Origin: Stenotrophomonas maltophilia
GTDB taxonomy: Bacteria > Pseudomonadota > Gammaproteobacteria > Xanthomonadales > Xanthomonadaceae
Assembly: GCF_900186865.1 (NCBI RefSeq)
Contig: NZ_LT906480.1
Span: forward strand, 3,614,001-3,678,000
DNA length: 64,000 nt
Direction of reading: 5' to 3'
The notes beneath the pieces were generated by a model. The model had not been told where the DNA came from. It searched no databases and saw nothing but the letters and a program-made list of their open reading frames with translations. Below, piece by piece: positions 1,703-58,497 of this stretch (within the stretch, counting starts at the first letter, position 1; every line of letters starts with the position of its first letter). The translations under genes were made by a program, and so were the position numbers.

Positions 1703-1785
1703 GGTTTTCGGCAGGGCTGCGCCCTGCACCTGCCGAAGCCGAAGCCAAATCAAGATCAAAAGCGGCTCTGGTTTTCTGTGAGTTG

Positions 1786-1889
1786 GGCGGGGCGGTGTGG
1801 GTGGTCAGGACACGCCGTAAACCCGTCCATGGGGGCTCGATGGCGCCATCCATGGCGCCAACGGTCCTGCCCACCCACACCGCCCCACC
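1786..1889. repeat. 104-bp palindromic module, copy 1
   Basis: Identical by eye, base for base, to 57983-58086. The ends form an inverted repeat (GGGCGGTGTGGGTGG at 1790-1804 pairs with 1871-1885), and the centre holds a second palindrome around ATGGCGCCATCCATGGCGCC. As RNA it would fold into a long two-tier hairpin. No open reading frame of note. Confidence 0.9.
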
Positions 1890-1964
1890 CCCGACAGATT
1901 TCCGATGACGGTTGGACCATCCACGCCCTGCGTGGATGAAATCTGTCAAATATCGAAATAAATC

Positions 1965-2005
1965 GGGGTCAGATCCGTTTTCCGCAGGAAAACGGATCTG
2001 ACCCC
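1965..2005. repeat. Perfect 18-bp stem-loop beginning GGGGTCAGATCC
   Basis: GGGGTCAGATCCGTTTTC is followed by five loop bases and its exact reverse complement. A related stem beginning GGGTCAGAGCC flanks 60809-60901. No T-run follows, so it is not a standard terminator. Confidence 0.85.
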
Positions 2006-2040
2006 AAGAGCAATTCCGACAGTTCGCAGGAAACTGTCGA

Positions 2041-2144
2041 AGGCGGGGTGGGTCCGGTTGCGGGGGCGTGAGCCGCATGGATGCGGCGACCGAGCTTACA
2101 TGGACGTACTTGCAGCGGCCCCCGCAACCGGACCCACCCCGCCT
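2041..2144. repeat. Palindrome with 27-bp perfect arms
   Basis: Left arm 2041-2067 and right arm 2118-2144 are exact reverse complements (AGGCGGGGTGGGTCC at the outer end), enclosing about 50 bases. The same arms, 25 bp perfect, occur at 39513-39537 and 39749-39773 around a much longer insert. Confidence 0.88.
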
Positions 2145-2164
2145 ACCCTCAGGAAACCAGCTTC

Positions 2165-2192
2165 TGCTGTTGCTGTTGCTGTTGCTGTTGCT
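2165..2192. repeat. Hexanucleotide tandem repeat (TGCTGT, about 4.7 copies)
   Basis: Four full TGCTGT units followed by TGCT. It lies in the right flank of cluster I, about 55 bases before the preferred tilS start. The left flank of the same cluster has GCCGAA twice, and cluster III has GCCGAA three times (57936-57953), so copy number differs between copies. Confidence 0.85.
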
Positions 2193-2248
2193 CTGGATCG
2201 TAGCGGGTGCAGGGCGCAGCCCTGCCGAGCAACCCTATACTTGCCACC

Positions 2249-3535
2249 GTGACTGCCTTCCCTGCCCTCGTTCCGCTGGATGCGCCGCTGCTGGTGGGCT
2301 ACAGCGGTGGCGTCGACTCCACCGTGCTGCTGCACTGGCTGTGGCGCTGCGCGCAGACTTCCGGCAGCGCCCTGCGCGCGGTGCACGTGCATCACGGCCT
2401 GCAACCCGATGCGGATGACTGGGTGCTGCACTGCCGGCAGCAATGCGACGCCTGGGGCATTGAGCTGGCCGTGCACCGCGTGCAGGTCGAGAACGGCACA
2501 GGCCTGGGCACCGAAGGTGCCGCGCGACAGGCACGACGCGCCGCGTTCGCGGCTGAGCTGCGCGACGGTGAGACGCTGGCACTGGCGCAGCACCAGGACG
2601 ACCAGGCCGAGACCTTCCTGTTGCGCGCCCTGCGCGCTTCCGGCGTCGATGGCCTGGCGGCGATGTCCACGCACAGCCGCCTTGGCGAACATCCCTTGTG
2701 GCGCCCGCTGCTGGCGGTACCACGCAGTGCACTGCTCGACTACGCGCGCCAGCACGCGCTGCGCTGGATCGAAGACCCCAGCAACGCGGAAGACCACGCC
2801 GATCGCAACTTCCTGCGCCTGCAGGTGTTGCCGTTGCTGCGCCAGCGCTGGCCGCATGCGGCTGCAGCATTGGCGGGCAGCGCGACGCATTGCCGGCAGA
2901 CCCGCGAACTGCTGGACGAGGAAGACGCCGAGCTGATCGCGCATCTGGAAGTGGCACCGCGCGTGCTGTCACTGGAACTGCTGCGCCAGATGTCGCCGCG
3001 CCGCGCAGCACGCGTGCTGCGCGCGTGGGTGCTGGGCCATGATGCGGCACCGTTGCCGGCCTCGGTGTTGCAGCAGGCGCTGGAGGAGCTGTTGCCAGCC
3101 GACACCGACCGCCAGGCGCGTGTGCGCTGGCAGCAGCACGTGATCCAGCAATGGCGCGACCACGCCTATCTGCTGCCGGCCCGGCTGCCCTCGCTGCCCC
3201 TCGACTGGCAGGCCGTGTGGGATGGCCGTGCACCGCTGCCATTGCCCGACGGCGGCCAGCTGAGCCTGCTGGGCGCCGGCGCTTTCGAACAGCCACTGCA
3301 GGTCCGTGCACGCGTGGGCGGCGAGCGCATCCTGCTGCCGGGTCGCCAGCATTCGCACGCGCTGAAGGACTGCCTGCAACGCGAGCACCTCGCCCCCTGG
3401 CGACGCGCGCAGCTGCCGCTGATCTTTGATGGCCCGCAGTTGCTGGCCGCCGCCGACGTGGTCATCGCCGCACCGCTGCAGGCCTGGTTGCAGGCGCATG
3501 ACGCGCAGTTGCAGTGGCGCCCGGGCGGCTGGTGA
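2249..3535 (+). CDS. tilS: tRNA(Ile)-lysidine synthase TilS
   Basis: Modifies C34 of the CAU-anticodon tRNA-Ile with lysine using ATP, so the tRNA reads AUA and is charged with isoleucine; cytosolic and essential in most bacteria. The N-type PP-loop SGGVDS sits at residues 19-24 from this start, followed by HQDDQAETFLLR and SGVDGL motifs, then the substrate-binding and C-terminal domains; 428 residues is normal for TilS. The GTG at 2249 is preferred because the upstream in-frame GTG at 2207 lies inside a dispersed repeat (2206-2225) and the extra residues look unlike TilS. No clear Shine-Dalgarno precedes either start, so the start is uncertain. xseB and ispA follow on the same strand. Confidence 0.95.
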   Translation: MTAFPALVPLDAPLLVGYSGGVDSTVLLHWLWRCAQTSGSALRAVHVHHGLQPDADDWVLHCRQQCDAWGIELAVHRVQVENGTGLGTEGAARQARRAAFAAELRDGETLALAQHQDDQAETFLLRALRASGVDGLAAMSTHSRLGEHPLWRPLLAVPRSALLDYARQHALRWIEDPSNAEDHADRNFLRLQVLPLLRQRWPHAAAALAGSATHCRQTRELLDEEDAELIAHLEVAPRVLSLELLRQMSPRRAARVLRAWVLGHDAAPLPASVLQQALEELLPADTDRQARVRWQQHVIQQWRDHAYLLPARLPSLPLDWQAVWDGRAPLPLPDGGQLSLLGAGAFEQPLQVRARVGGERILLPGRQHSHALKDCLQREHLAPWRRAQLPLIFDGPQLLAAADVVIAAPLQAWLQAHDAQLQWRPGGW

Positions 3536-3571
3536 ATTGACCCCCGCGCGCGGCCCGTCCACACTTGCCGC

Positions 3572-3832
3572 ATGGCCAAGAAGTCCCCCGAAAACGCCTC
3601 CCCCGTCGCCCAGTTCGAGCAGTCGCTCGAATCGCTGGAGCAGCTGGTGGAGCAGATGGAAACCGGCGAGCTGAGCCTGGAAGCTTCGCTCAGTGCTTAC
3701 GAGCGTGGTGTCGGTCTGTACCGCCAGTGCCAGCAGGCACTGGAGCAGGCCGAACTGCGCGTGCGCCTGCTCAGTGATCCGGCGCAGCCGGAAGCCTCCG
3801 AGCCCTTCGACCCGCCCAGCCATGACGGCTGA
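3572..3832 (+). CDS. xseB: Exodeoxyribonuclease VII small subunit
   Basis: 86 residues, the usual size. The core has the family pattern ([20 protein letters not shown], then [13 protein letters not shown] and a helix ending in [11 protein letters not shown]), forming a helical hairpin that binds the large subunit XseA to make exonuclease VII, a single-strand-specific nuclease producing oligonucleotides. The large subunit is not in this window. The 3' end overlaps the start of ispA by 11 bases, indicating translational coupling, as in the xseB-ispA pairs of many proteobacteria. Confidence 0.95.
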
Positions 3833-4700
3833 GGTTCTGTTCGCGCGCTGGCGCGACCGTATCGAAAGCCAGCTCGATGCCGCCCTGCCCTCGCCTGCCG
3901 AGGCGCCGCAGCGCCTGCATCAGGCCATGCGCTATTCGGTGCTTGGTGGCGGCAAGCGCATGCGGCCCCTGCTGGTCTACGCCAGTGGTCACCTGTTCGG
4001 TGCGCAGCCGGAAAGCCTGGATGCGGCGGCCATGTCCGTCGAGCTGATCCATGCCTATTCGCTGGTGCATGACGACCTTCCGGCGATGGATGACGACGCC
4101 CTGCGTCGCGGCAAGCCCACCACCCACATCGCCTTCGACGAAGCCACCGCGATCCTTGCTGGCGACGCCCTGCAGACCCGCGCCTTCGGCCTGCTGGCCG
4201 ATGCGCCGCTGCCGGCCACGTTGCGCGTGGCCTGCCTGCAGACCCTGGCCCACGCCTCAGGCGCGTCCGGCATGTGTGGCGGCCAGGCGCTGGACATCGA
4301 TGCCACCGGCCAGCAGCAGACGCTGGCGGCGCTGACCCGCATGCACGCGCTGAAGACCGGCGCGCTGATCCGCGCGGCAGTGCGCATGGGCGCGCTGTGC
4401 GGCCAGGCCCACGAACCGCAGTTGGCCCAGCTCGACAGTTTCGCCGATGCACTCGGCCTGGCCTTCCAGGTCCGCGATGACATCCTCGATGTCGAAGCCA
4501 GTTCCGAACAGCTGGGCAAGACTGCCGGCAAGGACCAGGCGCAGGACAAGAGCACCTTCCCCGCCCTGCTTGGCATGGACGGCGCAAAGGCACAGCTGCA
4601 CGAGCTCGCAGCGCGCATGCAGTCGATCCTGGCCGGGTATGGCGAGGAAGCCGACGCGCTGCGCGCGCTGGCGACGCTGGCGGTGGAACGCGATCACTGA
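3822..4700 (+). CDS. ispA: Farnesyl diphosphate synthase family (geranyltranstransferase)
   Basis: 292 residues. Short-chain trans-prenyltransferase that condenses isopentenyl diphosphate with dimethylallyl and geranyl diphosphate to give farnesyl diphosphate, precursor of quinones and undecaprenyl carrier. Visible motifs: GGGKRMRP (residues 42-49), the first Asp-rich motif DDLPAMDDD (84-92) with following RRGKPTTH, and the second motif DDILDVE (about 214-220) followed by GKTAGKD. The ATG at 3822 gives the normal N-terminus and overlaps xseB by 11 bases. A hairpin with A-run and T-run follows. Confidence 0.94.
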
Positions 4701-4733
4701 TCGCTGCACGCGGCCCGGCATTCCCCGCACACG

Positions 4734-4760
4734 AAAACGCCCGGCAGTGCCGGGCGTTTT
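4734..4760. terminator. Bidirectional terminator between ispA and the DUF4870 gene
   Basis: AAAACGCCCGGCA and TGCCGGGCGTTTT form a strong stem with an A-run on one side and a T-run on the other, between two convergent genes, so it can end transcription in both directions. Confidence 0.9.
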
Positions 4761-4781
4761 CAGTTCCGCGTGCGGACGATC

Positions 4782-5156
4782 CTACTTGATCAGGCGCAGC
4801 GCGAACGGGTAGCGATAGGCTTCGCCGTTGTTGGCCTTGACCGCAGCGATGATGCTGAACACCAGGCTGATGATGCCGACGATCGGGGCCAGGAACACGC
4901 CGATGATCACGATGGTGAGGATCATGCTGATGACCATGGCGATGGTCACGGTGATCTGGAAGTTCAGGGCTTCCTTGGCCTGGTCGGTCACGAAGGCCTT
5001 GCCAGCATCGTCCTTGTTGATCAGCCAGATGATCAGCGCGCCGATGAAGCCGGTGAAGATGCCCAGCAGGTGCGCGGCCAGGGCCATGGTGCGCTGATCG
5101 GCCGGAACGTCGGCGGTGGCCGGTGGCGGCGGCGGGACGTTATCGAATTCACTCAC
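4782..5156 (-). CDS. DUF4870 family membrane protein
   Basis: 124 residues from a GTG start (VSEFDNV), chosen because AGGAG lies seven bases upstream; an ATG 14 codons further upstream lacks such a site. The N-terminus has a Pro run (PPPPP), then three predicted membrane helices: about residues 26-46 (HLLGIFTGFIGALIIWLI), 67-90 and 90-108 (VIIGVFLAPIVGIISLVFS). The family is known as small integral membrane proteins of unknown role, often near stress or envelope genes. Nothing in the neighbours points to a specific function. Confidence 0.85.
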   Translation of the reverse strand: MSEFDNVPPPPPATADVPADQRTMALAAHLLGIFTGFIGALIIWLINKDDAGKAFVTDQAKEALNFQITVTIAMVISMILTIVIIGVFLAPIVGIISLVFSIIAAVKANNGEAYRYPFALRLIK

Positions 5157-5243
5157 GACAAAACTCCTTTTCATTGGGTGGTCTTGACCAACCAGCACCC
5201 AGCTGATTGCGTCAGGCGGGCATAGCTTACGCCATCGACGGCA

Positions 5244-6611
5244 TCAATCATTACCTGCGATGGTCATCCGCCCCAACAGGATCGAACCGGTCCGGATGTG
5301 CGAGCGGGGATCGACGTCGCTGCCGACCGCCTCGATGCTGCTGAACATCTCGCGCAGGTTGCCGGCGATGGTGATGCCGTCCACCGGGTACTGGATCTCG
5401 CCGTTCTCGACCCGGAAGCCACCCGCGCCACGCGAATAGTCGCCGGTCACGCCGTTCACGCCCTGCCCCATCAGCTCGGTCACCAGCAGGCCATCGCCCA
5501 TCTGCCGCGCGATGTCCTGCAGCGGGCCGGCATTGGCCGCCAACTGCAGGTTGTGCACGCCACCGGCGTTGGCGGTGGTCTGCAGGCCCAGCTTGCGTGC
5601 CGAGTAGCTGCCCAGCACATAGCGCTGCAGCACGCCGTCGCGGACCAGAGCCGAGGCCCGGGTGGCCACGCCGTCGCCGTCGAAGGCGGCCGAGCGCAGG
5701 CCACGACGCAGGTGGGGCAGCTCCTCGATCTGCATCCATTCCGGGAACAGGCGCTGGCCAACGCTGTCCAGCAGGAAGCTGGCCTGGCGATACAGAGCAC
5801 CGCCGGACACCGCCGAGAGCAGGTGCCCGACCAGGCTGCGCGCCACTTCCGGGGCGAACAGCACCGGCATGCTGCCGGTGGCCAGCGATCGTGGCTGCAG
5901 GCGGGCGACAGTACGCTCGGCGGCACGACGTCCGACCAGGCCGACGTCCTCCAGGTCCTCGCGAGCCAGCGCACTGGTGTACCAGCCGTCACGCTGCATG
6001 CCATCGCCCTGCCCGGCGATCAGCGCACAACCGACCGAATGGTGGGTGCCGCGCTCACGGCCGATGAAACCATGCGAATTGGCATAGACCGACAGGCTCT
6101 GCATGCTCGACACCGAGGCGCCGTCGGAATTGCGGATCTGCGCATCGGCCTCACGGCCTGCGGCTTCGCAAGCCAGGGCCAGGTCCACCGCCTCGTCGGC
6201 CTGCAGCGCCCACGGGTGCCAGCCGTCCAGGTCCGGGAAGTGGGTGGCCATCAGGGCCGCCTCGGCCAGGCCGGCGGCCGTGTCATCTTCGGTATGCCGG
6301 GCGATGGCGCAGGCCTGCTCGACCGTGGCCGCCAGGCTGGCCTCGTTCAGGTCGCCGGTGCTGGCGCTGCCCTTGCGTTGGCCGAAATACACAGTGACGG
6401 CGATGCCGCGGTCGCGGGTGGACTGCACGGTTTCGACCTCGCCGAGGCGGACATTCACCTCCAGCCCGCGGTCTTCGCTGCAGCTGACTTCAGCCTGGCT
6501 GGCGCCCAGCGCGCGGGCGCGGTCGAGCAGCTGCTGGGAGAGGTCGGCCAGCCGTTCCAGCCGGGCCGGGCTGTCGTCGCCGACGGCGGCTTCAGGGGCG
6601 ATCACGTTCAA
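5244..6611 (-). CDS. pmbA: Metalloprotease PmbA/TldE
   Basis: 455 residues, the expected length. PmbA (TldE) forms a heterodimer with TldD; the TldD/E protease degrades unfolded peptides and in enterobacteria processes microcin B17 and the CcdA antitoxin. The protein lacks a HExxxH zinc motif, which is normal for this subunit, and keeps the Gly-rich C-terminal half (GVNGVTGDYSRGAGGFRVENG, late SGSILLGRM-like end). The partner tldD lies 0.7 kb away at 7309-8754, separated by darP. Divergent from darP with a 68-base gap. Confidence 0.94.
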   Translation of the reverse strand: MNVIAPEAAVGDDSPARLERLADLSQQLLDRARALGASQAEVSCSEDRGLEVNVRLGEVETVQSTRDRGIAVTVYFGQRKGSASTGDLNEASLAATVEQACAIARHTEDDTAAGLAEAALMATHFPDLDGWHPWALQADEAVDLALACEAAGREADAQIRNSDGASVSSMQSLSVYANSHGFIGRERGTHHSVGCALIAGQGDGMQRDGWYTSALAREDLEDVGLVGRRAAERTVARLQPRSLATGSMPVLFAPEVARSLVGHLLSAVSGGALYRQASFLLDSVGQRLFPEWMQIEELPHLRRGLRSAAFDGDGVATRASALVRDGVLQRYVLGSYSARKLGLQTTANAGGVHNLQLAANAGPLQDIARQMGDGLLVTELMGQGVNGVTGDYSRGAGGFRVENGEIQYPVDGITIAGNLREMFSSIEAVGSDVDPRSHIRTGSILLGRMTIAGND

Positions 6612-6632
6612 TGCTTTATCCTGTACGGGTTG

Positions 6633-6663
6633 GGCCCGGCATCACGCCGGGCGACTTTTTTTG
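6633..6663 (+). terminator. Terminator-like hairpin just upstream of darP
   Basis: GCCCGGC and GCCGGGC pair across five bases and are followed after three bases by seven Ts. It sits between the divergent starts of pmbA and darP, on the darP strand, 17 bases before the darP ATG. This is an unusual place for a terminator; it may attenuate darP or stop transcripts arriving antisense through pmbA. Confidence 0.6.
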
Positions 6664-6679
6664 AAATCAGGTATGGACG

Positions 6680-7267
6680 ATGCGCGGACGCGACGAAGAA
6701 ACCGGTGAATTCCACGACAAGAGCCGCAGCCAGAACCGGCGCGACGCGCTCGACGTCCTGGCCCTGGGCGAAAAACTGGTGTCGCTGACACCGGCCCAGC
6801 TGGCGCGCCTGCCGATCCCGGAAGACCTGCTGCCGCACATCGCCGAGTGCAAGCGCATCACCGCGCACATCGCCCACAAGCGCCAGCTGGCGTTCCTGGC
6901 CAAGCACATGCGCCGCGAAGAAGAAGCCACGCTGGATGCGATCCGCGATGCGCTGGATGCCAACAGCGAAACCGGCCGCCGCGAAGTGGCGATGATGCAC
7001 CGCGTGGAAGACTGGCGCGAGCGCCTGCTGGCCGAAGGTGACAAGGCGCTGGCCGCCCTGCTGGACGATTACCCGCAGGCCGACCGCCAGCAGCTGCGCA
7101 CGCTGGTGCGCAATGCGCAGGCCGAGAAGGCGAAGAACAAGCCGCCGCGTGCCTATCGCGAGATCTACCAGGTGCTGCGCGCACTGATGCTGCCGGCGGC
7201 GCTCGGCCTGAAGGCCAGCGCCGAAGACGCTGGCCACGTCGAAGCCGACGAGGCCGACGAGGACTGA
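6680..7267 (+). CDS. darP: Ribosome biogenesis factor DarP (YjgA, DUF615)
   Basis: 195 residues, close to the 183 of E. coli YjgA. The protein is basic and helical, with the family's N-terminal [23 protein letters not shown] pattern and the helices around [22 protein letters not shown]. Known role: associates with late 50S precursors and promotes correct peptidyl-transferase centre assembly. In E. coli yjgA and pmbA are also adjacent. The ATG at 6680 has only a weak AGGT upstream; an out-of-frame ATG lies seven bases before it. Confidence 0.92.
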
Positions 7268-7277
7268 GTCCGCGCTG

Positions 7278-7310
7278 GAGCGGGCGGTGGCGCTGGCCAT
7301 CGCCCGGCTC
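7278..7310. terminator. Imperfect hairpin between convergent darP and tldD
   Basis: GAGCGGGCGGTGGC and GGCCATCGCCCGGCTC pair with a few mismatches and reach into the tldD stop codon. There is no T-run, so it is only a candidate bidirectional terminator. Confidence 0.45.
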
Positions 7311-8754
7311 AGGCCTGGGTACCGCCGACGGTGATGCCCTCGATCAACAGCGACGGCTGGCCGACACCCACCGGCACGCTCTGCCCGTCCTTGCCACAGA
7401 TACCCACGCCCTCGTCCAGGGCCAGGTCGTTGCCGACCATCCGCACCTTCTGCATGGTTTCCGGACCGTTGCCGATCAGGGTCGCCCCCTTCACCGGCGC
7501 GGTGATGCGGCCATCCTCGATCAGGTAGGCCTCGGTGGCCGAGAACACGTACTTGCCGCTGGTGATGTCGACCTGTCCGCCGCCGAAGTTCACTGCATAC
7601 AGGCCCTTCTTCACCGAGCGGATCATTTCCTGCGGGTCGTGCTGGCCGGCGCGCATGTAGGTATTGGTCATGCGCGGCATGGTCAGGTGCGCGAACGATT
7701 CGCGACGCCCGTTGCCGGTCGGTGCCATGCCCATCAGGCGTGCATTGAGGCTGTCCTGCATGTAGCCGACCAGGATGCCGTCCTCGATCAGCGTGGTGCA
7801 CTGGCTCGGGTGGCCTTCGTCGTCGATGTTGAGCGAACCGCGACGCCCGTCCAGGGTTCCATCGTCGACGATGGTCACGCCCGGTGCCGCCACGCGTTCG
7901 CCGATGCGGCCGGCGTAGACGCTGGTGCCCTTGCGGTTGAAGTCGCCTTCCAGGCCGTGGCCGACCGCTTCATGCAGCAGCACGCCGGGCCAGCCAGGTC
8001 CCAGTACCACCGGCATCACGCCGGCCGGCGCCGGCACGGCGTCCAGGTTCACCAGCGCCTGGCGCAGGGCCTCGCGCGCAAATGCTTCCGGGCGGCCATC
8101 AGCAAACAGTTCCCCGTAGCCATAGCGGCCACCGCCACCGGCATAGCCGGACTCGCGGCGGCCGTTGTGTTCGACGATCACCTGCACGTTCAGGCGTACC
8201 AGCGGGCGCACGTCAGCGCCCAGCACGCCGTCGCTGCGCGCGATGAGCACCGTGTCCACGCCGCCGGACAGGCTCACCATCACCTGCTTCACGCGCGGGT
8301 CGGCGGCACGCAGGTAGCCGTCCAGGCGCTTCAGCACCTCGACCTTTGCCTCGTTGCCGACGCCATCGATGGGATCCAGCGCCGGATACAGCGCGCGTGA
8401 ATTGCCGCGCAGCAGCGAGCGCCCGGACTGCGCGCCACCCTCGCGCGAAATCGCACGCGCCGACTGCGCCGCGGCCAGCAGCGCGTCGGCATGGATGTCG
8501 TCGGAGTAGGCGAATCCGGTCTTCTCGCCGGACATCGCCCGTACGCCCACGCCTTGCTCGATGGAATGGGCACCGTCCTTGACGATGCCGTCTTCCACGC
8601 TCCAGCTCTCGCGGCGGGCGTGCTGGAAATAGAGGTCGCCGAAGTCCACACCGGGGCCGAGCAGCTGGCCGAAGGTGCGCTCCAGGCCATCGGTATCCAG
8701 CCCGCCGGGGCGCAGCAGGCGATCTTGGGCAAGCGTCAGGGCGATATCAGTCAT
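7309..8754 (-). CDS. tldD: Metalloprotease TldD
   Basis: 481 residues from the ATG at 8754 ([10 protein letters not shown]). Catalytic subunit of the TldD/PmbA protease: the zinc motif HEAVGH is at residues 261-266, with later [21 protein letters not shown] and [18 protein letters not shown] regions typical of the family. It works with PmbA, encoded at 5244-6611. The adjoining upstream gene yhdP is on the same strand with a 60-base gap, and the order rng-yhdP-tldD is widely conserved, so an operon is likely. Confidence 0.95.
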
Positions 8755-8814
8755 GGTTCTCGATCTGGGGGTGCTGGGGCGCTCAGGCAAGCCCCGTGAA
8801 CAGGAGGTCCACGC

Positions 8815-12675: not shown

Positions 12676-12705
12676 CGGCCACCGCCGGCCTGCGGCCGGC
12701 GAGGA

Positions 12706-14794: not shown

Positions 14795-14925
14795 CGGCAC
14801 AGCATAACCTGAGGCCGCCACCTGAATCGTCGGCAACCCGTCCCGGAACGCGTTCAACCCCGAACGGGCTCACAGCGCGTTCATCGCTACGACACCACCC
14901 TCAACGGCACAACAAGGAGTTCTCC

Positions 14926-15663: not shown

Positions 15664-15686
15664 CCCCATCCGTTCCGGTAGACAGA

Positions 15687-21173: not shown

Positions 21174-21250
21174 TGGCGCCCGAAGTTGGACTCGAACCAA
21201 CGACCCCCTGATTAACAGTCAAGTGCTCTAACCGGCTGAGCTATTCGGGC
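21174..21250 (-). tRNA. tRNA-Asn (anticodon GTT)
   Basis: Seventy-seven bases including an encoded CCA. The acceptor stem GCCCGAA pairs with TTCGGGC, the D arm reads AGCTCAGCCGGTTAGAGC, the anticodon loop CTGTTAATC gives GTT, and the T arm contains GGTTCGAGTCC. A TATACT hexamer on the minus strand at 21259-21264, about ten bases upstream, may be its -10 element. It follows the leuS-to-rlmH operon and has its own terminator. Confidence 0.97.
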
Positions 21251-39462: not shown

Positions 39463-39512
39463 CCACCAAGAGCAGGCCGTGGCATTCCAACAGATCGCGG
39501 AGACCTGTCGAA

Positions 39513-39773
39513 GGCGGGGTGGGTCCGGTTGCGGGGGCGTGAGCCGCATGGGCCCGAGGCATGCCTCGGGCGGGTTGGGCAGGACGCCCAACCCCGGTCT
39601 TGCCGTGTGCGCAGGACAGCGCCCACGAGCAAGCGGCGACCGAGCTTACATGGGTGAGGGCGCTTTGCTTGCGAAGCACTGCTTCGCAAGCGCCCGAACG
39701 CACAGCCGCCAGCGGCTGGGCCGGGCCCCGGAGGGGGAATTGCAGCGCCCCCCGCAACCGGACCCACCCCGCC
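39513..39773. repeat. Long multi-armed palindrome, cluster II
   Basis: Outer arms 39513-39537 and 39749-39773 are perfect reverse complements (25 bp). Inside are CCCGAGGCATGCCTCGGG, GTTGGGCAGGACGCCCAAC, a CTTGC...GCAAG hairpin around 39599-39634, and CTTGCGAAGCACTGCTTCGCAAG-like pairing near 39668-39690. As RNA this would be a branched multi-hairpin structure. Bases 39546-39634 match 58274-58362 with four differences by eye. Confidence 0.85.
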
Positions 39774-39832
39774 ATCCCACGGATAGCCGTCTTTGCTTTT
39801 GAGGTTGCCGGCCAGCGTCCGGCACTACCGCG

Positions 39833-39852
39833 GGTGCAGGGCGCAGCCCTGC
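39833..39852. repeat. Bounding module of cluster II
   Basis: GGTGCAGGGCGCAGCCCTGC, the same sequence and orientation as 2206-2225 and 58465-58484, always at the right end of a cluster. Confidence 0.85.
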
Positions 39853-47949: not shown

Positions 47950-47957
47950 AGCCCTGA

Positions 47958-49394: not shown

Positions 49395-49472
49395 GTCGCA
49401 TCCCCGATGGAATGCGCACACGATACGCCGCCGCCGCGTGCACGGCACGTACCGGCGCAGGCCGTTGGGGAT

Positions 49473-50090: not shown

Positions 50091-50260
50091 GGCGTTGCCT
50101 CCGGATGCCGCGTCTTCCACTCGGCCAGCGCCTTGCGATAGCGCTGCAGCTCATCGGCGTACAGATCCAGCACGCACAGCGGGCAACCACTGCCGCAGCA
50201 TTCGTTGGGACCGGGCTCTTCCGGTGGCAGCGGGCGGGGATCGGGATCAGGGACGGACAC
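50087..50260 (-). CDS. Oxidoreductase-like domain small protein
   Basis: 57 residues from GTG 50260 (VSVPDPDPRPLPPEEPG). The C-terminal half NECCGSGCPLCVLDLYADELQRYRKALAEW carries the CCGxGCxxCVxD cluster of the oxidoreductase-like (OXLD) domain, which in larger proteins sits at the N-terminus. Function unknown; the four cysteines may bind a metal or cluster. A TTG six codons earlier is another possible start. Overlaps the DUF998 gene by ATGA. Confidence 0.78.
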   Translation of the reverse strand: MSVPDPDPRPLPPEEPGPNECCGSGCPLCVLDLYADELQRYRKALAEWKTRHPEATP

Positions 50261-50309
50261 AGTGGGAAGCGACAATCGGTGAGAGCAGGCCCAAGTGTAC
50301 CGGTCCAGC

Positions 50310-50912: not shown

Positions 50913-51004
50913 ACCCGGATCATCCCGCCTGCGCAGCCCCGCGGCAAGCTGATGGTTTTTTCACCACATACTCACAACGCTTGCCCGGTGAGGCCTGGAC
51001 GCGG

Positions 51005-51050
51005 TTGTCCACAGCTTTGTCGAGCGCTGGTCCACATCGGTTGTGGATGA
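51005..51050. promoter_or_regulatory. Cluster of three DnaA-box-like sites
   Basis: TTGTCCACA (51005-51013), TGGTCCACA (51028-51036) and TGTGGATGA (51042-51050, reverse orientation) each differ from the TTATCCACA consensus at one or two positions, all in the 240-base gap between divergent genes. Could titrate DnaA or be chance in a region of this composition. Confidence 0.35.
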
Positions 51051-51152
51051 AACGCCGTACCGGCCACGCGCCGACCAACGGTCACTGCAGCGCGGCGCCG
51101 CCGGGTCTACACTCGCTGCAGGCGGGAGCGCCCGCCGCTGCCGGGAACTGTC

Positions 51153-52304: not shown

Positions 52305-52310
52305 GACCGA

Positions 52311-52646
52311 TCAGGCCTTCTTGAGGAAGCAGGTCTTCAGGACCAGGCCCTTGATCTTGTCCGAGTTGCCTTCGATGTGCTCGGCATCATCTTCGACCAG
52401 GCGGATGTTGCGGATCACGGTGCCCTGCTTCAGCGGGATCGAAGACCCCTTCACCTTCAGGTCCTTGATCACGGTGACGGTGTCGCCGGCCTGCAGGGTA
52501 TTGCCGTTGCTGTCACGCACGACCAGGGTCGAACCGGCACTTTCCTCGGCGGTCCATTCGAAACCGCAATCGGCGCAGATCCACAGCGCGCCATCGGCAT
52601 AGGTGTTTTCCAGGGTGCACTGCGGGCAGGCGGGAACAGACGACAT
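52311..52646 (-). CDS. Zinc-ribbon PhnA/YjdM family protein
   Basis: 111 residues from ATG 52646 (MSSVPACPQC). N-terminal zinc ribbon CPQC and CADC at about 7-29, followed by the conserved NTLQAGDTVTVIKDLKVKGSSIPLKQGT SH3-like domain and GLVLKTCFLKK end. Despite the historical name, no role in phosphonate breakdown is supported; the family is of unknown function. Confidence 0.93.
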   Translation of the reverse strand: MSSVPACPQCTLENTYADGALWICADCGFEWTAEESAGSTLVVRDSNGNTLQAGDTVTVIKDLKVKGSSIPLKQGTVIRNIRLVEDDAEHIEGNSDKIKGLVLKTCFLKKA

Positions 52647-52828
52647 CGGCAAGTACCTCAAAGTGAATCAACAGCCGCCATTGTAACCGCCCGGTCCGGG
52701 GCCCCGGCTCCCTGGCAGGTGCCCGGCCGCCGCCATGACCGCGGCTGGAGCAGCCGTGACGCTGGAACTTGCAGTCGGCGACGAACTGCAGCAGAGTGCG
52801 CGGCCCCTGACCGCCCCCGGAACTCCCC

Positions 52829-54190
52829 ATGCGCCTCGGCATCGACTTCGGTACCAGCAACTCCGCCGCCGCCATCGTGCATGAGGGGAAACTGCTGCCG
52901 ATCCGTTTCGGTGACGCCGAACAGTTCCGCACCAGCGTGTACTTCCCCGGCGTGGTGCCCGACCCGGACGACTTCCAGCTCGACGACGGCCAGGAACACC
53001 AGCTGCAGCAGATGATCGATAGCGCCGCGCGTGCAGCCCGTGCCGCCGGCCAGGAACGCACCCCGCAGGCGCTGCGCCGTGAAGCCCTGCGCGCCCTGCG
53101 CCGTGAATGGATGGAGGCCCGCGCCGGCAAGGAACGCAGCGCCAGCGACCTGCTGCAGAACGCGGTCTACGGCGACGACGCGCTGGAAGCCTATTTCGAG
53201 GAACACGAAGGCAACCTGGTGCAGAGCCCGAAGTCGATGCTGGGCTACAACCTGCACCCACGCGCGAAGCAGACCATCACCGGCATCGCCGCGCACATCC
53301 TCGAACACATCCGCCTGACCGCCAGCGCCCAGCTTGGCCAGCCGCTGCGTGCCGCTCTGCTCGGCCGCCCGGTGCAGTTCCGCAGCTCGATCGGCGCGGC
53401 CGGCAATGACCAGGCACTGGATATCCTGCGCGAGGCCGCCACCCAGGCCGGCTTCGACCAGATCGATTTCCTCGAAGAACCCGCCGCGGCGGCCATGCAC
53501 TACCACGCCGAAAGCCGCGAGCGGCACCAGGCGGTGATCGTCGACATCGGCGGCGGTACCACCGATATCGCGCATGCCGAAGTCGGCGGCGACGACGCCC
53601 CGCGTATCCACCGCGCGTGGGGTATCGCCCGCGGCGGTACCGACATTGATCTGGCGCTGAGCCTGTCCAGCTACATGCCGCTGTTCGGCCGCGGCATCAC
53701 CCGCGTGCCCGCCCACCACTATGTGGAAGCAGCCACCGTGCAGGACATGACGCGCCAGCGCGACTTCCGCCAGCACAAATACGATCACGTCGACGAGCCG
53801 TGGGGCGGGCGCCTGCAGGCCCTGCAGGACACCGGCAATACTGCCCGCCTGTACCGCGATGTCGAACGCGCCAAGATCGCCCTCAGCGCCGCCAGCGAGC
53901 ACCGCAGCACGCTGGACTACATCGCCCGCGACCTGCATGCCGACAGCAGCGCCGATGGCCTGGCCGCCGCCGCCCACGGCTACCTGGAGCAGATCCGGGA
54001 ACTGCTGGCCCAGGTCCGCAGCGACATCGGGGGCGACCCGGATGCGGTGTTCCTGACCGGCGGCATGTCCCGTGCCGGCTACCTGCGCCAGGCCGTGGCC
54101 GAGGCCTTCCCGGGGGCCCGCATGGTCCACGGCGAGCCCTCGCTGGGCGTGGTCCAGGGCCTGGCATTGGCGGCAGCCAGCCAGGATTAA
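52829..54190 (+). CDS. Hsp70-family chaperone, YegD-like
   Basis: 453 residues. Actin-like ATPase: phosphate 1 motif GIDFGTSNSAAA at residues 4-15, phosphate 2 motif VIVDIGGGTTDIAHAEV, adenosine motif VFLTGGMSRAGYLRQA. No separate substrate-binding domain follows, as in E. coli YegD. Likely ATP-dependent chaperone-like protein with unknown clients. A small hairpin (GGCCCGC...GCGGGCC, 54283-54299) follows about 95 bases downstream. Confidence 0.92.
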   Translation: MRLGIDFGTSNSAAAIVHEGKLLPIRFGDAEQFRTSVYFPGVVPDPDDFQLDDGQEHQLQQMIDSAARAARAAGQERTPQALRREALRALRREWMEARAGKERSASDLLQNAVYGDDALEAYFEEHEGNLVQSPKSMLGYNLHPRAKQTITGIAAHILEHIRLTASAQLGQPLRAALLGRPVQFRSSIGAAGNDQALDILREAATQAGFDQIDFLEEPAAAAMHYHAESRERHQAVIVDIGGGTTDIAHAEVGGDDAPRIHRAWGIARGGTDIDLALSLSSYMPLFGRGITRVPAHHYVEAATVQDMTRQRDFRQHKYDHVDEPWGGRLQALQDTGNTARLYRDVERAKIALSAASEHRSTLDYIARDLHADSSADGLAAAAHGYLEQIRELLAQVRSDIGGDPDAVFLTGGMSRAGYLRQAVAEAFPGARMVHGEPSLGVVQGLALAAASQD

Positions 54191-54326
54191 CAAAACGTTA
54201 CGCGGTCTAAGTTACTCTTGGTCGGCTAGAACCCCGCTGCACCTTCCACCGGCCACGCCGGTGTGTGTCCACGGTGCAGCCTGGCCCGCCCTGCGGGCCT
54301 AGCGGCCATGCCTTCCTGGCTCGTTC

Positions 54327-54713
54327 ATGGTCCGCGCAGCACCTGAGCCGCCATCGAGACCCGCTTTGGGCACCCGCCAGGCCCCTGTGGCCTTACAACC
54401 TGACGCAGCACCTGCACCCATCGACTGCCGCCGTTGTGACGCGGTCTGTTGCCGGCTGCCCGTGCTGCTGCAGCCCGGCGACCACGTGCCTGGCCAGTTC
54501 CTGTCACGCGACACCCACGGCCGTGCCGTGATGGCGCGCAACGAGGAAGGCTGGTGCGCGGCGATCGATCCCTATCACCTGCGCTGCACGATCTATTCGC
54601 AGCGCCCGGCGATCTGCCGCCAGTTTTCGATGGGCGGCGATGACTGCCGCCGCGAGCGGCAGGACTACCTGCGCCAGGCCGACGCCTGGGCGCTTTCCTC
54701 CCCTTCCACCTGA
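54327..54713 (+). CDS. YkgJ family cysteine-cluster protein
   Basis: 128 residues. Eight cysteines in the YkgJ pattern: CRRCDAVCCRLPVLL, GWCAAIDPYHLRCTIYSQRPAICRQF and DDCRRER, expected to bind zinc or an iron-sulfur cluster. Function unknown. The N-terminal 30 residues are Pro/Ala-rich and poorly conserved in look, so a later start is possible. Followed by a 60-residue basic protein 11 bases downstream. Confidence 0.85.
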   Translation: MVRAAPEPPSRPALGTRQAPVALQPDAAPAPIDCRRCDAVCCRLPVLLQPGDHVPGQFLSRDTHGRAVMARNEEGWCAAIDPYHLRCTIYSQRPAICRQFSMGGDDCRRERQDYLRQADAWALSSPST

Positions 54714-54724
54714 CAGGAGCAACC

Positions 54725-54907
54725 ATGCCCCGCAAGGCAAAGACCCCCGCGAAGGCCAGCAACAGCATCCGCAGCGAACGCAAGGGCGCGGCCGCCAGCA
54801 CCGTGGTCAGCAGCGATTCGATCGCTTCGGACCTGGCAGCGTTCCGCAAGGCCGGTGGCAAGATCGAAGTCCTCGGCACCACCTGGGCGCTGAAGAAAGC
54901 CAGCTGA
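54725..54907 (+). CDS. Small basic conserved-looking protein
   Basis: 60 residues, not recognised. Basic N-terminus (MPRKAKTPAKASNSIRSERKG), Ser-rich middle, and a C-terminal SDLAAFRKAGGKIEVLGTTWALKK that reads like a folded motif. GGAG lies six bases before the ATG. Immediately downstream of the YkgJ gene, so probably co-transcribed. Possibly a nucleic-acid-associated small protein, which is inference from charge only. Confidence 0.65.
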   Translation: MPRKAKTPAKASNSIRSERKGAAASTVVSSDSIASDLAAFRKAGGKIEVLGTTWALKKAS

Positions 54908-54918
54908 CCCAGTACCGA

Positions 54919-54942
54919 CCGCGGCGGCGCTGCCGCCGCGGC
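54919..54942. terminator. Hairpin between convergent genes
   Basis: CCGCGGCGGC and GCCGCCGCGG form a ten-base stem between the small basic protein gene and the DUF4097 gene. No T-run. Confidence 0.5.
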
Positions 54943-54956
54943 CTGCCGGACCGTGC

Positions 54957-55838
54957 TCAGCGATCCAGGCGTACCCGCACACTGCCCGAATGCGACTGGA
55001 TGCGGATGTCTCCATCGCCGCCCCCCAGACGCGTATCGAGATGGCTGCCCGGCCCGTAGCGCGGCCGCTCCACCTGACCGGCGTCGCTGTTGATCGAGCC
55101 GCTGAAGCTGTTCACCGACAGCTGTGCCGACACCGTGCGTGGCAGGCTCAGCGTGACCGAGGCACTGACCGATTCGACATTGATGCGGCCGCCGGGCGCC
55201 AACCCGGCCGCTGCCAGATCGATGCTGCCCGAAACGGTTTCCACCGCCAGTCGCTGCACGCGCCCGGCGTCGACCTCGACCCGTCCGGACACCGTCTGCG
55301 CACCGATATCACCGGACACGCCGCCGCCGGCCTCGATGCGGCCACTGACGGTGTTCACATCCAGCTTCGGCGTCTGCAGGCGTGCGCTGACGCTGCCACT
55401 GACCGTGTTGAGCTTGCTGTCGCCACTGCGGCCAGCCGCGCTCAGGCTGCCGCTGACCGTGTCGGCCTGCAGCCGTCGCACATCGATACCACTGATGTCC
55501 TGGCTGGCGCTGACCGTGCTCAGCAGCAGCTCCACCGATCGCGGCACGTTCAACACCAGCGTTGCACCACCGTTGTTGCTGCGGCGCGGATATTCGATCT
55601 CCCAGCGCACACGGTTGGCGCTTTTTTCCTGGCGCAACTGCAGGCCGTCGCTGAGCGTGCCGGTGAGCTGCACGTCATTGCGGTCCCAGCCACGCACGGT
55701 CACCTTGCCGGCCACGTTGCTCAGCTCGATGCGACCGCCCGCAGCCAAGGTGTGGCGCTCGTCGATGCGGGTGTCGGCCAGTGCCACGGCAGGGGTCAGC
55801 AGCAGCGCGACACAGCAGGAAATCAGGGTTCGGGTCAT
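54957..55838 (-). CDS. DUF4097 beta-repeat protein
   Basis: 293 residues. Signal peptide 1 to about 21 (LISCCVALLLTPAVALA). The rest is a right-handed beta-repeat protein of DUF4097/adhesin-like type, with serial units such as VNTVSGSVSARL, VNTVSGRIEAGG, AQTVSGRVEVDAG and VETVSGSIDLAAAG. Third gene of an operon with an ECF sigma factor and an anti-sigma-like membrane protein, ten bases after the latter, suggesting an exported product controlled by or reporting to that sigma system. Confidence 0.9.
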   Translation of the reverse strand: MTRTLISCCVALLLTPAVALADTRIDERHTLAAGGRIELSNVAGKVTVRGWDRNDVQLTGTLSDGLQLRQEKSANRVRWEIEYPRRSNNGGATLVLNVPRSVELLLSTVSASQDISGIDVRRLQADTVSGSLSAAGRSGDSKLNTVSGSVSARLQTPKLDVNTVSGRIEAGGGVSGDIGAQTVSGRVEVDAGRVQRLAVETVSGSIDLAAAGLAPGGRINVESVSASVTLSLPRTVSAQLSVNSFSGSINSDAGQVERPRYGPGSHLDTRLGGGDGDIRIQSHSGSVRVRLDR

Positions 55839-55848
55839 GGGGGTCTCC

Positions 55849-56382
55849 TCAGGTCGTCAGGCCGGCCTCGGCGGCATAGGCCGCCTGCCGGGTCAGTTCC
55901 AGCCGCAACGCATAGGTGCGCTTGAGCTGGCCAAGCAGGTGCGGCGCACGCGGGTCCTGCGCCAGGGCGGCACGGATCTGCGCCGCGCTTTCATCCAGTT
56001 CATGCAAGGCCGGCTGCCATTCCGGCGCCCGTCCATCGGGCAGCGCGGCCACGGCCTGCTGGTACTGCTCGGTCATCGCCGCGGCCTGCAGCTGCAGGGC
56101 GGACGGCGCCGGCGTATCCGGCTGCGCATGCCGCCACGGCGCCACCGCATACAGTGCCAGGCTGGCAGCCAGGGCAGCGCCGGCCGGCCACCACCAGCGG
56201 CGCCGCGAACGCACCGGCAGGACCACCACGTTGTCCGTTGGCGCGGGTGCTGCCTGCGATTCACGCGGCGGCAGCCGGGCGGACAGGCGTGCCCAGCCAT
56301 CGGCGGGTACATCGCGCTCGTTCGGCAGCGCGCGCAGCCGGGCCAGCAGGTCGTGATCGGAATCGTGTTCGTGTGTACTCAT
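55849..56382 (-). CDS. Anti-sigma-factor-like membrane protein
   Basis: 177 residues. Cytosolic N-terminus of about 60 residues (DHDLLARLRALPNERDVPADGWARLSARL), one membrane helix near 65-82 preceded by RSRRRWWW, and a periplasmic helical tail. The position after and overlapping (ATGA) the ECF sigma gene argues for an anti-sigma factor. No HxxxCxxC zinc motif is present, so it is not a classical ZAS-type anti-sigma. The role is inference from context. Confidence 0.75.
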   Translation of the reverse strand: MSTHEHDSDHDLLARLRALPNERDVPADGWARLSARLPPRESQAAPAPTDNVVVLPVRSRRRWWWPAGAALAASLALYAVAPWRHAQPDTPAPSALQLQAAAMTEQYQQAVAALPDGRAPEWQPALHELDESAAQIRAALAQDPRAPHLLGQLKRTYALRLELTRQAAYAAEAGLTT

Positions 56383-56957
56383 GTCATGTCTCCCAGCCGT
56401 GCGCGCAACAGGCCGCGCGCACGATGCAGCTGTGCCTTGGAACTGCCGACAGCCATCTGCAGCTGCTCGGCGATTTCCTGGTGTTTCCAGCCTTCGATAT
56501 CGTGCAGCACCAGTACCGCACGCGCCCGTGGTGGCAGTGTCGACAATGCGCGCTCCAGGTCACGCTCGGTACCCGCGCAACGGTCATGCACCGCCAGTTC
56601 CTGCAGGCCGCCATCGACATCCTCCAGACTGTCGTGATCCTGCCCTGCGGCGCGACCGCGCAGTTCCATCAGTGCGGCGTTGACCCCCAGCCGATGCAGC
56701 CAGGTGGACAGGCTGCTCTCGAAACGGAACCCTGGCAGGGCTTTCCAGGCCTGCAGGAAGGCCTCCTGCAACGCATCCTCGGCACGTGCCTGCTGGCCGC
56801 CACACAACCGCCACAGGACAGCGAATACACGCGGCGCGTGACGCCGGTACAGCAGTTCGTAGGCAGCGGTGTCGCCGGCGGCCGCCGCCCGCACCAGGGC
56901 GGGTTCGTCGACGGCGTCGTTGGCGGCAGGCAGCGCGGGCATGGTGGTGTCGAGCAT
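56379..56957 (-). CDS. ECF-family RNA polymerase sigma factor
   Basis: 192 residues from ATG 56957 (MLDTTMPALP); an ATG five codons later is also possible. Region 2: YELLYRRHAPRVFAVLWRLCGG to AEDALQEAFLQAWKALPGFRFESSLSTWLHRL; region 4: LSTLPPRARAVLVLHDIEGWKHQEIAEQLQMAVGSSKAQLHRARGLLR. This is a small two-domain sigma factor directing core polymerase to a special regulon. It overlaps the anti-sigma-like gene (ATGA). The signal is unknown. Confidence 0.95.
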   Translation of the reverse strand: MLDTTMPALPAANDAVDEPALVRAAAAGDTAAYELLYRRHAPRVFAVLWRLCGGQQARAEDALQEAFLQAWKALPGFRFESSLSTWLHRLGVNAALMELRGRAAGQDHDSLEDVDGGLQELAVHDRCAGTERDLERALSTLPPRARAVLVLHDIEGWKHQEIAEQLQMAVGSSKAQLHRARGLLRARLGDMT

Positions 56958-57083
56958 ATCGCTTGGATGCGGCGACCCGGGAAAAGGTTTAGAGCCGATC
57001 GACGGCCGATGCCATGCAACCTTTTCGACGGCTGCTGCATCCATGGAAGGTCCTTCGCGAATCTGCCGTCCGGGAGTCCTGCC

Positions 57084-57263
57084 ATGTCCAGCCCTTCCTG
57101 CGCCGCCCTGCTGGTGATCGCTGCCTGCGTCCTGCTGCAGGCGCTGGGCCTGTCACTGCAGCTGCGCCCCGACAACGGCCGCGCCTGCCTGCATCAGCAC
57201 CGCCAGGAGCTGGTCTGCCTGGCCTGGACCCCGGCGGTCGAATCCCCCGCACGCGCCGGGTAA
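57084..57263 (+). CDS. Small hypothetical single-helix membrane protein
   Basis: 59 residues, not recognised. MSSPSCAALLVIAACVLLQALGL gives one membrane helix or signal-like segment (about 5-26), followed by a short tail with two cysteines (ACLHQHRQELVCLAW). GGAG lies ten bases before the ATG. It lies 36 bases before the MscS gene and divergent from the sigma gene. Short length keeps confidence moderate. Confidence 0.5.
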   Translation: MSSPSCAALLVIAACVLLQALGLSLQLRPDNGRACLHQHRQELVCLAWTPAVESPARAG

Positions 57264-57299
57264 CATCGAGGGCCGTTATTGCCACCCGTCGTCGCCCCC

Positions 57300-57893
57300 A
57301 TGATGTTGTCGCTGAAGGATCACCTGCCGGCCTGGACCTACCCTTGGCTCCACGACGCGGGTATCGCCGTGAAGATCCTGCTCACCCTGCTGGCCGCGTG
57401 GCTGCTGCGGGTGCTGGCACGGCGCTTGATCCGCCGCTTCGCCGAGCACTACACGCTGCCACCGGAAATGGTGATGGGCGCGCGCCGGATCACCAGTTTC
57501 GTGGTCTATTTCAGCGCAGTGCTGTACATCCTCAGCCTGCTCGGCGCATCGCCGTCGGTACTGTGGACCGCGTTCACCGGCTTCGCGGCGGTGGGTGCGG
57601 TGGCCTTCTTCGCGGCCTGGAGCGTGCTCTCCAACATCTTCTGCACGCTGCTGATCTTCACCACGCGCCCGTTCCGCCTGCATGACTACATCGAGGTGCT
57701 GGAGAACGGCGAGAAACCGGGCCTGAAGGGCCGGGTGATCGACGTGAACCTGATCTACACCACGCTGCAGGAGACCGGCGACGGCCACGAGGGCACGGTG
57801 CTGCAGCTGCCGAACAACCTGTTCTTCCAGCGCACGGTGCGGCGCTGGCGCGACCCGGCGCAGGCCCCCGGCGGCATCCAGGGCGACGGCTGA
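57300..57893 (+). CDS. Small MscS-type mechanosensitive channel
   Basis: 197 residues from ATG 57300. Three hydrophobic segments (about 21-40, 66-86 and 93-115), the last being the pore-lining Gly/Ala-rich helix FTGFAAVGAVAFFAAWSVLSNIFC, followed by the beta domain TRPFRLHDYIEV and VLQLPNNLFFQRTVRRW. Shorter than E. coli MscS (286) because the cytoplasmic cage is reduced, as in short MscS subfamilies. Releases osmolytes under hypo-osmotic shock. Followed by palindrome cluster III. Confidence 0.9.
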   Translation: MMLSLKDHLPAWTYPWLHDAGIAVKILLTLLAAWLLRVLARRLIRRFAEHYTLPPEMVMGARRITSFVVYFSAVLYILSLLGASPSVLWTAFTGFAAVGAVAFFAAWSVLSNIFCTLLIFTTRPFRLHDYIEVLENGEKPGLKGRVIDVNLIYTTLQETGDGHEGTVLQLPNNLFFQRTVRRWRDPAQAPGGIQGDG

Positions 57894-57982
57894 GGGAGGT
57901 TCTTCTTTGCAGGGCTGCGCCCTGCACCTGCAGAGGCCGAAGCCGAAGCCGAAGCAAGATCAAGAGCGGCATTCCGTGGGAT

Positions 57983-58086
57983 GGCGGGGCGGTGTGGGTG
58001 GTCAGGACACGCCGTAAACCCGTCCATGGGGGCTCGATGGCGCCATCCATGGCGCCAACGGTCCTGCCCACCCACACCGCCCCACC
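57983..58086. repeat. 104-bp palindromic module, copy 2
   Basis: Identical by eye to 1786-1889, more than 56 kb away, in the same orientation and the same relative place between the bounding module and the GACAGATT pair. Confidence 0.9.
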
Positions 58087-58240
58087 TCTGACAGATTCCG
58101 CGCGCTGTTGGTGGGTGCCGACCGTTGGTCGGCACATCTGTCAGATATCGATAGTCAAAATTGGATCCGACCCCGTGCCGACCAACGGTCGGCACCCACC
58201 ATCAGCAGCAGGTTCCAACAGATCGCGGAAATCTGTCAGA

Positions 58241-58421
58241 GGCGGGGCGGTGTCGGATTGCGGGGTGTCCGCGGCATGGGCCCGAGGCATGCCTCGGGCG
58301 GATTGGGCAGGACGCCCAACCCCGGGCTTGCCGTGTGCGCAGGAAAGCGCACACGAGCAAGCCGCGGCCAAGCCCCCATGGACGGGTTCACGGCGTCCCC
58401 GCACTCCGACACCGCCCTGCC
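58241..58421. repeat. Multi-armed palindrome, cluster III
   Basis: Arms 58241-58265 and 58397-58421 pair at 23 of 25 positions. The interior holds CCCGAGGCATGCCTCGGG, TTGGGCAGGACGCCCAA and a CTTGC...GCAAG hairpin; 58274-58362 matches 39546-39634 with four differences. The arms differ in sequence from those of clusters I and II although the core is shared. Confidence 0.85.
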
Positions 58422-58497
58422 AACCCACGGAATGCCAGCCTTTGATGTTGACGTTGCTTCTGCAGGTGCAGGGCGCAGCCCTGCAATAAAACACCCC

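Follow-up and report, generated by a model that had tools for sequence, protein, structure and literature searches.

The consensus of the master regulator CsrA/RsmA is CANGGANG presented in a hairpin loop. The sponge small RNAs CsrB/CsrC and RsmX/Y/Z sequester CsrA through several GGA hairpins and are encoded by one to few genes per genome, which have their own promoter and terminator. ERIC (IRU) of enterobacteria is an intergenic palindrome of approximately 127 bp, and repetitive extragenic palindromes (REPs) have insertion sequences (ISs) that target their loops, such as IS1397. An ANGGA motif in hairpins is described for CsrA/RsmA in PMC12889724. For TwoAYGGAY RNA (Rfam RF01731, in clan CL00106 together with rsmX), Gardner and Eldai 2014 (PMC4333381) proposed CsrA binding on the basis of its loops and mentioned tandem G.A pairs. 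RsmU (sRX061) of Xanthomonas campestris appears in PMC7694677 as an RsmA-binding RNA derived from a 3' untranslated region (3'UTR), with several GGA motifs and no Rfam homologue, and the SMAG/REP sequences of Stenotrophomonas are characterized in PMC2613905 and PMC2817692 as hairpins of 20-26 bp with a GTRG head and a RAYT transposase. Here, we analyzed a 64,000-nt stretch of the 5.0-Mb Stenotrophomonas maltophilia genome (NZ_LT906480.1; C1:3614001-3678000; hereafter, the window), in which three intergenic clusters contain a repeat module of approximately 100 nt with two GGA-loop hairpins. These clusters are probably composite loci of a class-wide, high-copy, TwoAYGGAY-like repeat that works as a predicted CsrA-binding RNA.

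The module follows the plan of TwoAYGGAY: two hairpins whose loops hold NGGA stand under an external stem, tandem G.A occurs, and a genome has several copies; the second hairpin of TwoAYGGAY is long and unbulged, whereas its counterpart in the module (hp1) is short with a conserved 5-nt bulge. By working mode, the modules are likened to CsrB/CsrC and RsmX/Y/Z, but here 100+ modules are dispersed, with two sites each. RsmU is likened to the module by description, as an RsmA-type RNA with several GGA motifs. The clusters resemble SMAG/REP sequences as intergenic palindromes of high copy number, and REPs sit inside them, but SMAG/REP sequences have no GGA-loop three-way junction. The module itself was rejected as a SMAG/REP (a hairpin of 20-40 bp with a GTRG head): it is approximately 105 nt long and has a different core, and the REPs are separate parts. 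ERIC/IRU shares GAGCTTACAT with one of the two core types of the module (B cores) and folds as one hairpin line; it was rejected as the same family, as none of three E. coli ERIC loci was matched at E<=1 by R1, a covariance model built from 52 module copies of this genome (alignment A1). Within the listings and passages that it covered, our literature search yielded nothing in which, to our reading, this repeat is treated as a CsrA-type RNA.

Module architecture and strand-specific constraint

The repeat unit (about 105 nt) comprises an outer stem, P1, around a near-constant 52-nt core with two small hairpins. The P1 arms, mostly 22-30 bp (median 26, 29, and 28 bp in three groups), are near-perfect inverted repeats whose sequence differs between copies. 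The copies have one of two main core types, A and B, which paired changes in both small stems set apart; tandem G.A occurs in one stem of the B cores. On the strand opposite to the core search pattern, referred to as the GGA strand, the core contains hp2, with a C-ANGGAN-G loop on a stem of approximately 5-10 bp, and hp1, whose C-ANGGAN-G loop tops a stem of 3+3 bp that holds the 5-nt bulge. In the copies of this genome, the loops read C-ATGGAT-G (hp2) and C-ANGGAY-G (hp1; one hp1 loop ends in G), and the two GGAs are spaced 23 nt apart. Upstream of P1, some copies have one more GGA hairpin, which was not counted as part of the module because others lack it.

The CANGGANG hairpin-loop feature of CsrA/RsmA sites is present in both module loops. 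Among the pattern-found cores of this genome, ANGGAN was observed in hp1 for 109/109 and ATGGAT in hp2 for 103/109, counts that are partly circular because the search patterns contain hp1. R1 was therefore read on other genomes, where 66 distinct modules from 21 related genomes kept the C, A, GGA, and G of hp2 in 66/66 and those of hp1 in 64, 65, 65, and 65 of the 66, respectively. The N of hp2, always T in the training copies, was T in 39, G in 14, A in 8, C in 1, and a gap in 4. The free loop positions, which vary in both loops across other genera and families, coincide with the N of the protein's motif, which is the strongest single clue for a CsrA/RsmA site. The hp2 loops of family f7 read AGGGAT, ACGGAT, AAGGAT, and ATGGAT, and some loops of genome G060 are shorter (AGGAT/AGGAAG-type). 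The 8 weakest of 82 rows had been dropped before the loop count: five antisense reads and three variant modules with GGA in both loops, of which one has two CANGGANG and two have AGGAC or AGGAG in the second loop. In these variants (L155:1764-1866, L173:1674-1770, and L182:1501-1605), hp2 is normal (CATGGATG), and the second hairpin is longer with GGA in its loop; they may be intermediates toward, or links to, TwoAYGGAY.

The stems covary. Two-sided changes were found in 30 of 36 pairs among the 52 copies of this genome. We further used A3, an ungapped alignment of 56 diverse gammaproteobacterial modules from which a second covariance model, R2, was built; 44 of its rows came from a pattern fixing the loop letters, and its counts were used for the stems only. 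The stem cells of A3 were paired in 93.5%, compared with 56.8% in shuffles and 36.6-46.0% with the partners slid, and cells with two-sided change numbered 757 versus 220 in shuffles. The number of pairs with two-sided change (34/38) was barely above that in shuffles (32.2; 4/500 reach it).

The mismatches of P1 depend on the strand. With the register set by Watson-Crick pairs alone and modules of fewer than 14 pairs left out, G.U exceeded A.C on the GGA strand by 33:12 in this genome (102 modules, p 0.002), 36:6 in other Xanthomonadales (51 modules, 3e-6), and 136:25 in named Gammaproteobacteria (126 modules, 1e-19). As the opposite strand would swap the roles of G.U and A.C, the asymmetry argues for selection on GGA-strand RNA, as opposed to a purely DNA-level palindrome.

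Copy number, pairing and range

The first-pass annotation of the window had proposed a search for the modules in complete genomes; two core patterns retrieved 67 + 42 = 109 cores in this genome, and many related genomes also contained matches. The reversed-pattern controls gave 0, and thus the core matches are not due to chance. R1 yielded 136 matches at E<=1 (150 of 5721 candidates scored), 117 of them at >=59 bits. Among the model-only matches with sequence (n=17), both loops were intact in 9, and hp1 held an insert in 8. Forty-six loci contain two modules (35 among the strong matches), with GGA strands divergent in all and 132-297 bp apart; the patterns identified 30 such loci, and loci that are single by pattern are partly pairs. 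For 15 close pairs in other genomes, 10 were divergent, 3 facing, and 2 in the same direction. The paired modules of Stenotrophomonas often have REPs or REP-like hairpins between them, with GCAGGGC-type hairpins outside. The perfect 19-bp palindrome GGGGTCAGATCCGTTTTCC was also seen in the middle of several clusters of relatives.

R1 matches were present in 32 of 61 relatives (own genome included) and, across the family, in 73/247 genomes and 16/54 genera (with 16 candidates scored in each genome). In the order's other families, 41 copies were counted in G042, 47 in G052, 11 in G060, and 3 in G050. In the class, R2 matched 78/369 genomes and 69/271 genera at E<=0.001 (11 candidates scored per genome), and the best E was <=1e-9 in 65 of the 78. 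The core pattern was found in at least 119 stretches of named genomes, and the 80 listed titles are gammaproteobacterial by title or by genus, one of them reading only Proteobacteria. In genomes picked for having a match, R2 matches at E<=0.001 ranged from 1 in Ectothiorhodospira to at least 150 in Methylotuvimicrobium and Methylocucumis, with 113 in S. maltophilia D457, 142 in Xanthomonas arboricola, 137 in Microbulbifer, and 40 in Vibrio. Three contigs of a viral collection (L335, L336, and L337) also hold modules; L336 looks like a Stenotrophomonas copy, and the other two share another host type. This genome has one csrA, with L4 and R44 recognized by eye, and csrA was found in 58/61 relatives, including all 32 that bear modules.

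Composition and history of the clusters

The clusters extend over 1711-2225 (I, between a WG-repeat gene and tilS), 39510-39852 (II, between a glyoxalase and a DUF2147 gene), and 57909-58484 (III, between an MscS-like gene and a small open reading frame (ORF)). They contain the following features in window coordinates; the limits of inserts are approximate.

1711..1727, strand not applicable: left terminal hairpin GCAGGGCTGCGCCCTGC, cluster I
1785..1890, - strand: left module, A core, cluster I (R2 100.8 bits at 1790-1885:-; GGA loops, read on the - strand: hp2 at 1847-1854, hp1 at 1824-1831)
1918..1938: REP-like hairpin CATCCACGCCCTGCGTGGATG, cluster I, resembling S_sp1 of the REP list without the GTAG head
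1965..2005, strand not applicable: central 19-bp palindrome GGGGTCAGATCCGTTTTCC, cluster I
2017..2039, + strand: small hairpin with GGA in its loop (CGACAGTTCGCAGGAAACTGTCG), cluster I, not kept in all copies
2041..2144, + strand: right module, B core, cluster I (R2 92.4 bits at 2045-2140:+; loops CATGGATG at 2076-2083 and CATGGACG at 2099-2106)
2209..2225, strand not applicable: right terminal hairpin, cluster I
39510..39776, + strand: module, B-like core, cluster II, with inserts interrupting both GGA loops (no R2 report at E<=1)
39553..39633, + strand: insert of GCCCGAGG type in the hp2 loop, cluster II
39654..39736, + strand: insert of GTGAGGGCGC type in the hp1 loop, cluster II
39836..39852, strand not applicable: right terminal hairpin, cluster II
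57909..57925, strand not applicable: left terminal hairpin, cluster III
57983..58086, - strand: left module, A core, cluster III, equal to the left module of cluster I over 104 bp (loops on the - strand at 58044-58051 and 58021-58028)
58104..58206, strand not applicable: two inverted REPs of Smal3 type (GGTGGGTGCCGACC...) by the REP list, cluster III
58240..58421, + strand: right module, A core, cluster III (weak R2 match, 25.8 bits; hp1 loop CATGGACG at 58377-58384 intact, hp2 loop interrupted)
58280..58361, + strand: insert of GCCCGAGG type in the hp2 loop, cluster III
58468..58484, strand not applicable: right terminal hairpin, cluster III

The first-pass annotation had described three mosaic clusters assembled from shared parts, and this description holds at the above positions. 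The 104-bp module of clusters I and III is an exact block (from 1786 and 57983), and the outer arms ascribed to clusters I and II lie within 47 exact bp (from 2034 and 39505). GCAGGGCTGCGCCCTGC-type hairpins are inverted at both ends of clusters I (1711, 2209) and III (57909, 58468), cluster II having the right one only (39836). All three clusters sit between called genes, and the reported SMAG-like palindromes are the pair of cluster III, which is the published REP Smal3, and the hairpin of cluster I, which resembles S_sp1. The block of approximately 89 bp common to clusters II and III was also recovered (longest exact run, 28 bp; 4 mismatches by eye), but it is an insert within one GGA loop and not the hairpin core it had been taken for. 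A single family of modules, with inserts in the loops, is the best reading of what had been described as shared modules. The proposal of a composite family of mobile or structural elements stands as to its non-coding nature, its size beyond SMAG/REP, and the exchange of modules among loci, while mobility receives only indirect support from the copy number and one near-empty site in relative G016. The three-way-junction RNA core, the two CANGGANG loops on one strand, the gammaproteobacterial spread, and the divergent pairs go beyond that annotation.

The loci are long-lived, with modules or cores swapped in place. Upstream of tilS, at least one strong module was present at 25 of 30 loci and both at 18 (61 genomes searched). 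The core of the module next to tilS is of A type at some loci and of B type at others, both stems being re-matched and most of P1 retained. Relatives G220 and G317 have no module upstream of tilS, and the upstream gene is different there. In ten relatives with the gene order of the window, an intact module was found at cluster I in 9/10, at cluster II in 8/10, and at cluster III in 8/10. At the position of cluster III, a gap of 46 bp that holds one terminal hairpin was seen in G016, and no target duplication was established there.

The loop inserts recur in other copies. We searched for three inserts directly after CANGG or CANGGA, a pattern that itself demands the site, and obtained 16 distinct occurrences of the GTGAGGGCGC block (hp1), 11 of the 89-bp II/III block (hp2), and 5 of IS ends (hp1). 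In relative G321, an IS3-type IS lies inside the hp1 loop; these IS3-family ends in hp1 are likened to the loop-targeting ISs of REPs, e.g., IS1397. The IS3-family ends were seen in L378:5400-7400 of G321, L034, L077, L082, and L096, and L378 encodes OrfA (HTH_28) and OrfB (rve). The hp2 insert (39553-39633 and 58280-58361) folds into hairpins with AGGAC or AGGA-containing loops, which are possibly extra GGA sites.

Triplet-rich tracts, (TGTTGC/GAAGCC)n, of variable length lie between the module and the end hairpin (e.g., 2160-2190). The window also contains a tRNA gene at 21177-21250 (-), which was the sole Rfam match at gathering score in the whole window; CsrB/CsrC/RsmX/Y/Z were unmatched. 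At lax E-values, the modules gave microRNA-type hairpins, Ysr224, isrG, and a few others, far below threshold. The sub-threshold matches to Ysr224, a Yersinia small RNA, fall on the non-GGA strand (1768-1867 (+), 2063-2152 (-), L158, and L238).

Function and rival explanations

The module may simply be the known TwoAYGGAY RNA, already proposed to bind CsrA, with only the additional copies being new; we consider this doubtful. Beyond the common plan, in which the module carries ANGGAN twice, with Y as the second letter in part of the copies, under a covarying P1, five of six TwoAYGGAY loci reached R2 scores of 33-43 bits (E 5.5e-9 to 1.5e-6), the three variant modules have the longer second hairpin, and close divergent pairs occur there too (5 of 7 neighbors within 600 bp among the matches listed, the other 2 in the same direction). 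However, this cross-detection is modest: approximately 30 bits are reached by unrelated palindromes, the sixth locus scored 20.5 bits, no better than antisense hairpins there, and the R2 alignments cover P1 and hp2 and mostly skip hp1, the hairpin in which the two groups differ. Identity with RF01731 fails when tested with its own model, which had no match in this genome at E<=1 (7 of 280 candidates scored) and none on module 2036-2150 at E<=10. Across the class, 37/369 genomes had an RF01731 match at E<=1, which exceeded the cut-off in 15; a weak one falls on a match of R2 (G422:C92). The TwoAYGGAY literature, in its available parts, does not describe a dispersed repeat. That the module works like TwoAYGGAY is well supported, and we regard the two as probable sister groups within a larger kind.

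A DNA-level palindromic element (REPIN/BIME/MITE or a cruciform site), moved by a transposase or perfected by template switching, would have no RNA role, and its loop letters would serve the recognition of single-stranded DNA by a protein. Such an element would fit the perfect P1 arms of changing sequence, the high copy number, the association with known REPs, and the loops, which hold an IS of the IS3 family and small inserts of two kinds. We regard it as unlikely, since the strand-asymmetric wobble (G.U 136 vs A.C 25) has no evident explanation at the DNA level, and the letters that vary in the two loops are precisely those at the N positions of CANGGANG. Still less probable are ordinary REP-like intergenic terminators or stabilizers of mRNA 3' ends, which would leave the twin GGA loops, the asymmetric core, and the strand bias unexplained. 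In their favor are the strong GC stems, the 3 terminator-like sites of cluster I (two being one overlapping hairpin; 0.5 expected), GCTTTT within 40 nt after P1 in 31/106 modules of this genome, and a tendency toward gene 3' ends, but T is rare (0.08-0.12) in the 10 nt directly after P1. The last tendency was seen at 33/42 single loci of this genome (7/49 left out), in which the module faces the 3' end of an oppositely directed gene on its GGA 3' side. Gene calling was crude, and 14/79 loci overlapping a predicted ORF were left out. In other genomes, 84 modules were entered (of 85, one in L240 that is truncated by a contig end was left out), of which 22 were inside a longest-ORF call and 13 at an edge. 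Gene orientation was rejected as a general rule, being strong in this genome and absent in the others, and no conserved promoter or terminator signature of the modules was seen.

Several observations weigh against the module being a CsrA-binding RNA. The sigma-70 scan of cluster I gave 0 promoters (0.1 expected), and no upstream motif common to module groups was seen. The orientation in this genome is not that of a plain 3'UTR element, and other genomes have no orientation bias (27/49). Single-sequence minimum free energy folds do not always show hp1. The tilS orthologues alone have no wobble bias (G.U vs A.C 4:3, 35 modules), and the inner helices have too few wobbles to decide the strand. 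Single copies seem dispensable, given that the loops of some are interrupted. Unrelated long palindromes score approximately 30 bits with R2, and weak matches elsewhere may be other things. csrA is also present in 26/29 module-free genomes, and a dependence of the modules on csrA was not significant (Fisher p 0.10).

The CsrA-binding RNA that we favor would work as follows. The GGA strand, whose P1 of approximately 27 bp opens into a three-way junction with two hairpins, would be transcribed from its own promoter or by read-through. With the GGAs 23 nt apart, one CsrA/RsmA dimer could hold both, so that the module RNA would capture CsrA/RsmA, and many loci might jointly titrate CsrA and/or tag neighboring transcripts. 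Neighboring modules in Stenotrophomonas point apart, with REPs between and hairpins outside. Whole modules or cores are replaced by other versions in a gene-conversion-like manner, and this replacement, together with the loop inserts, makes the clusters mosaic. A further reading, which we hold only tentatively, is a mobile or gene-converting RNA repeat with twin CsrA sites that spread through the Gammaproteobacteria as a genome-wide sponge or transcript tag, up to at least 150 copies per genome; if true, this would be a repeat family whose evolution proceeds on the RNA level, either with a global regulator or against it.

Transcription of the modules would mean that every such genome contains up to a hundred or more unannotated twin CsrA sites. 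Models of the Csr/Rsm regulon would then change for Stenotrophomonas, Xanthomonas, Marinobacter, Shewanella, and others, the little-studied TwoAYGGAY RNA would be placed in a larger group, and the spread of a large palindromic repeat family would have a reason. A repeat family that looks like junk may thus act on the master regulator CsrA/RsmA.

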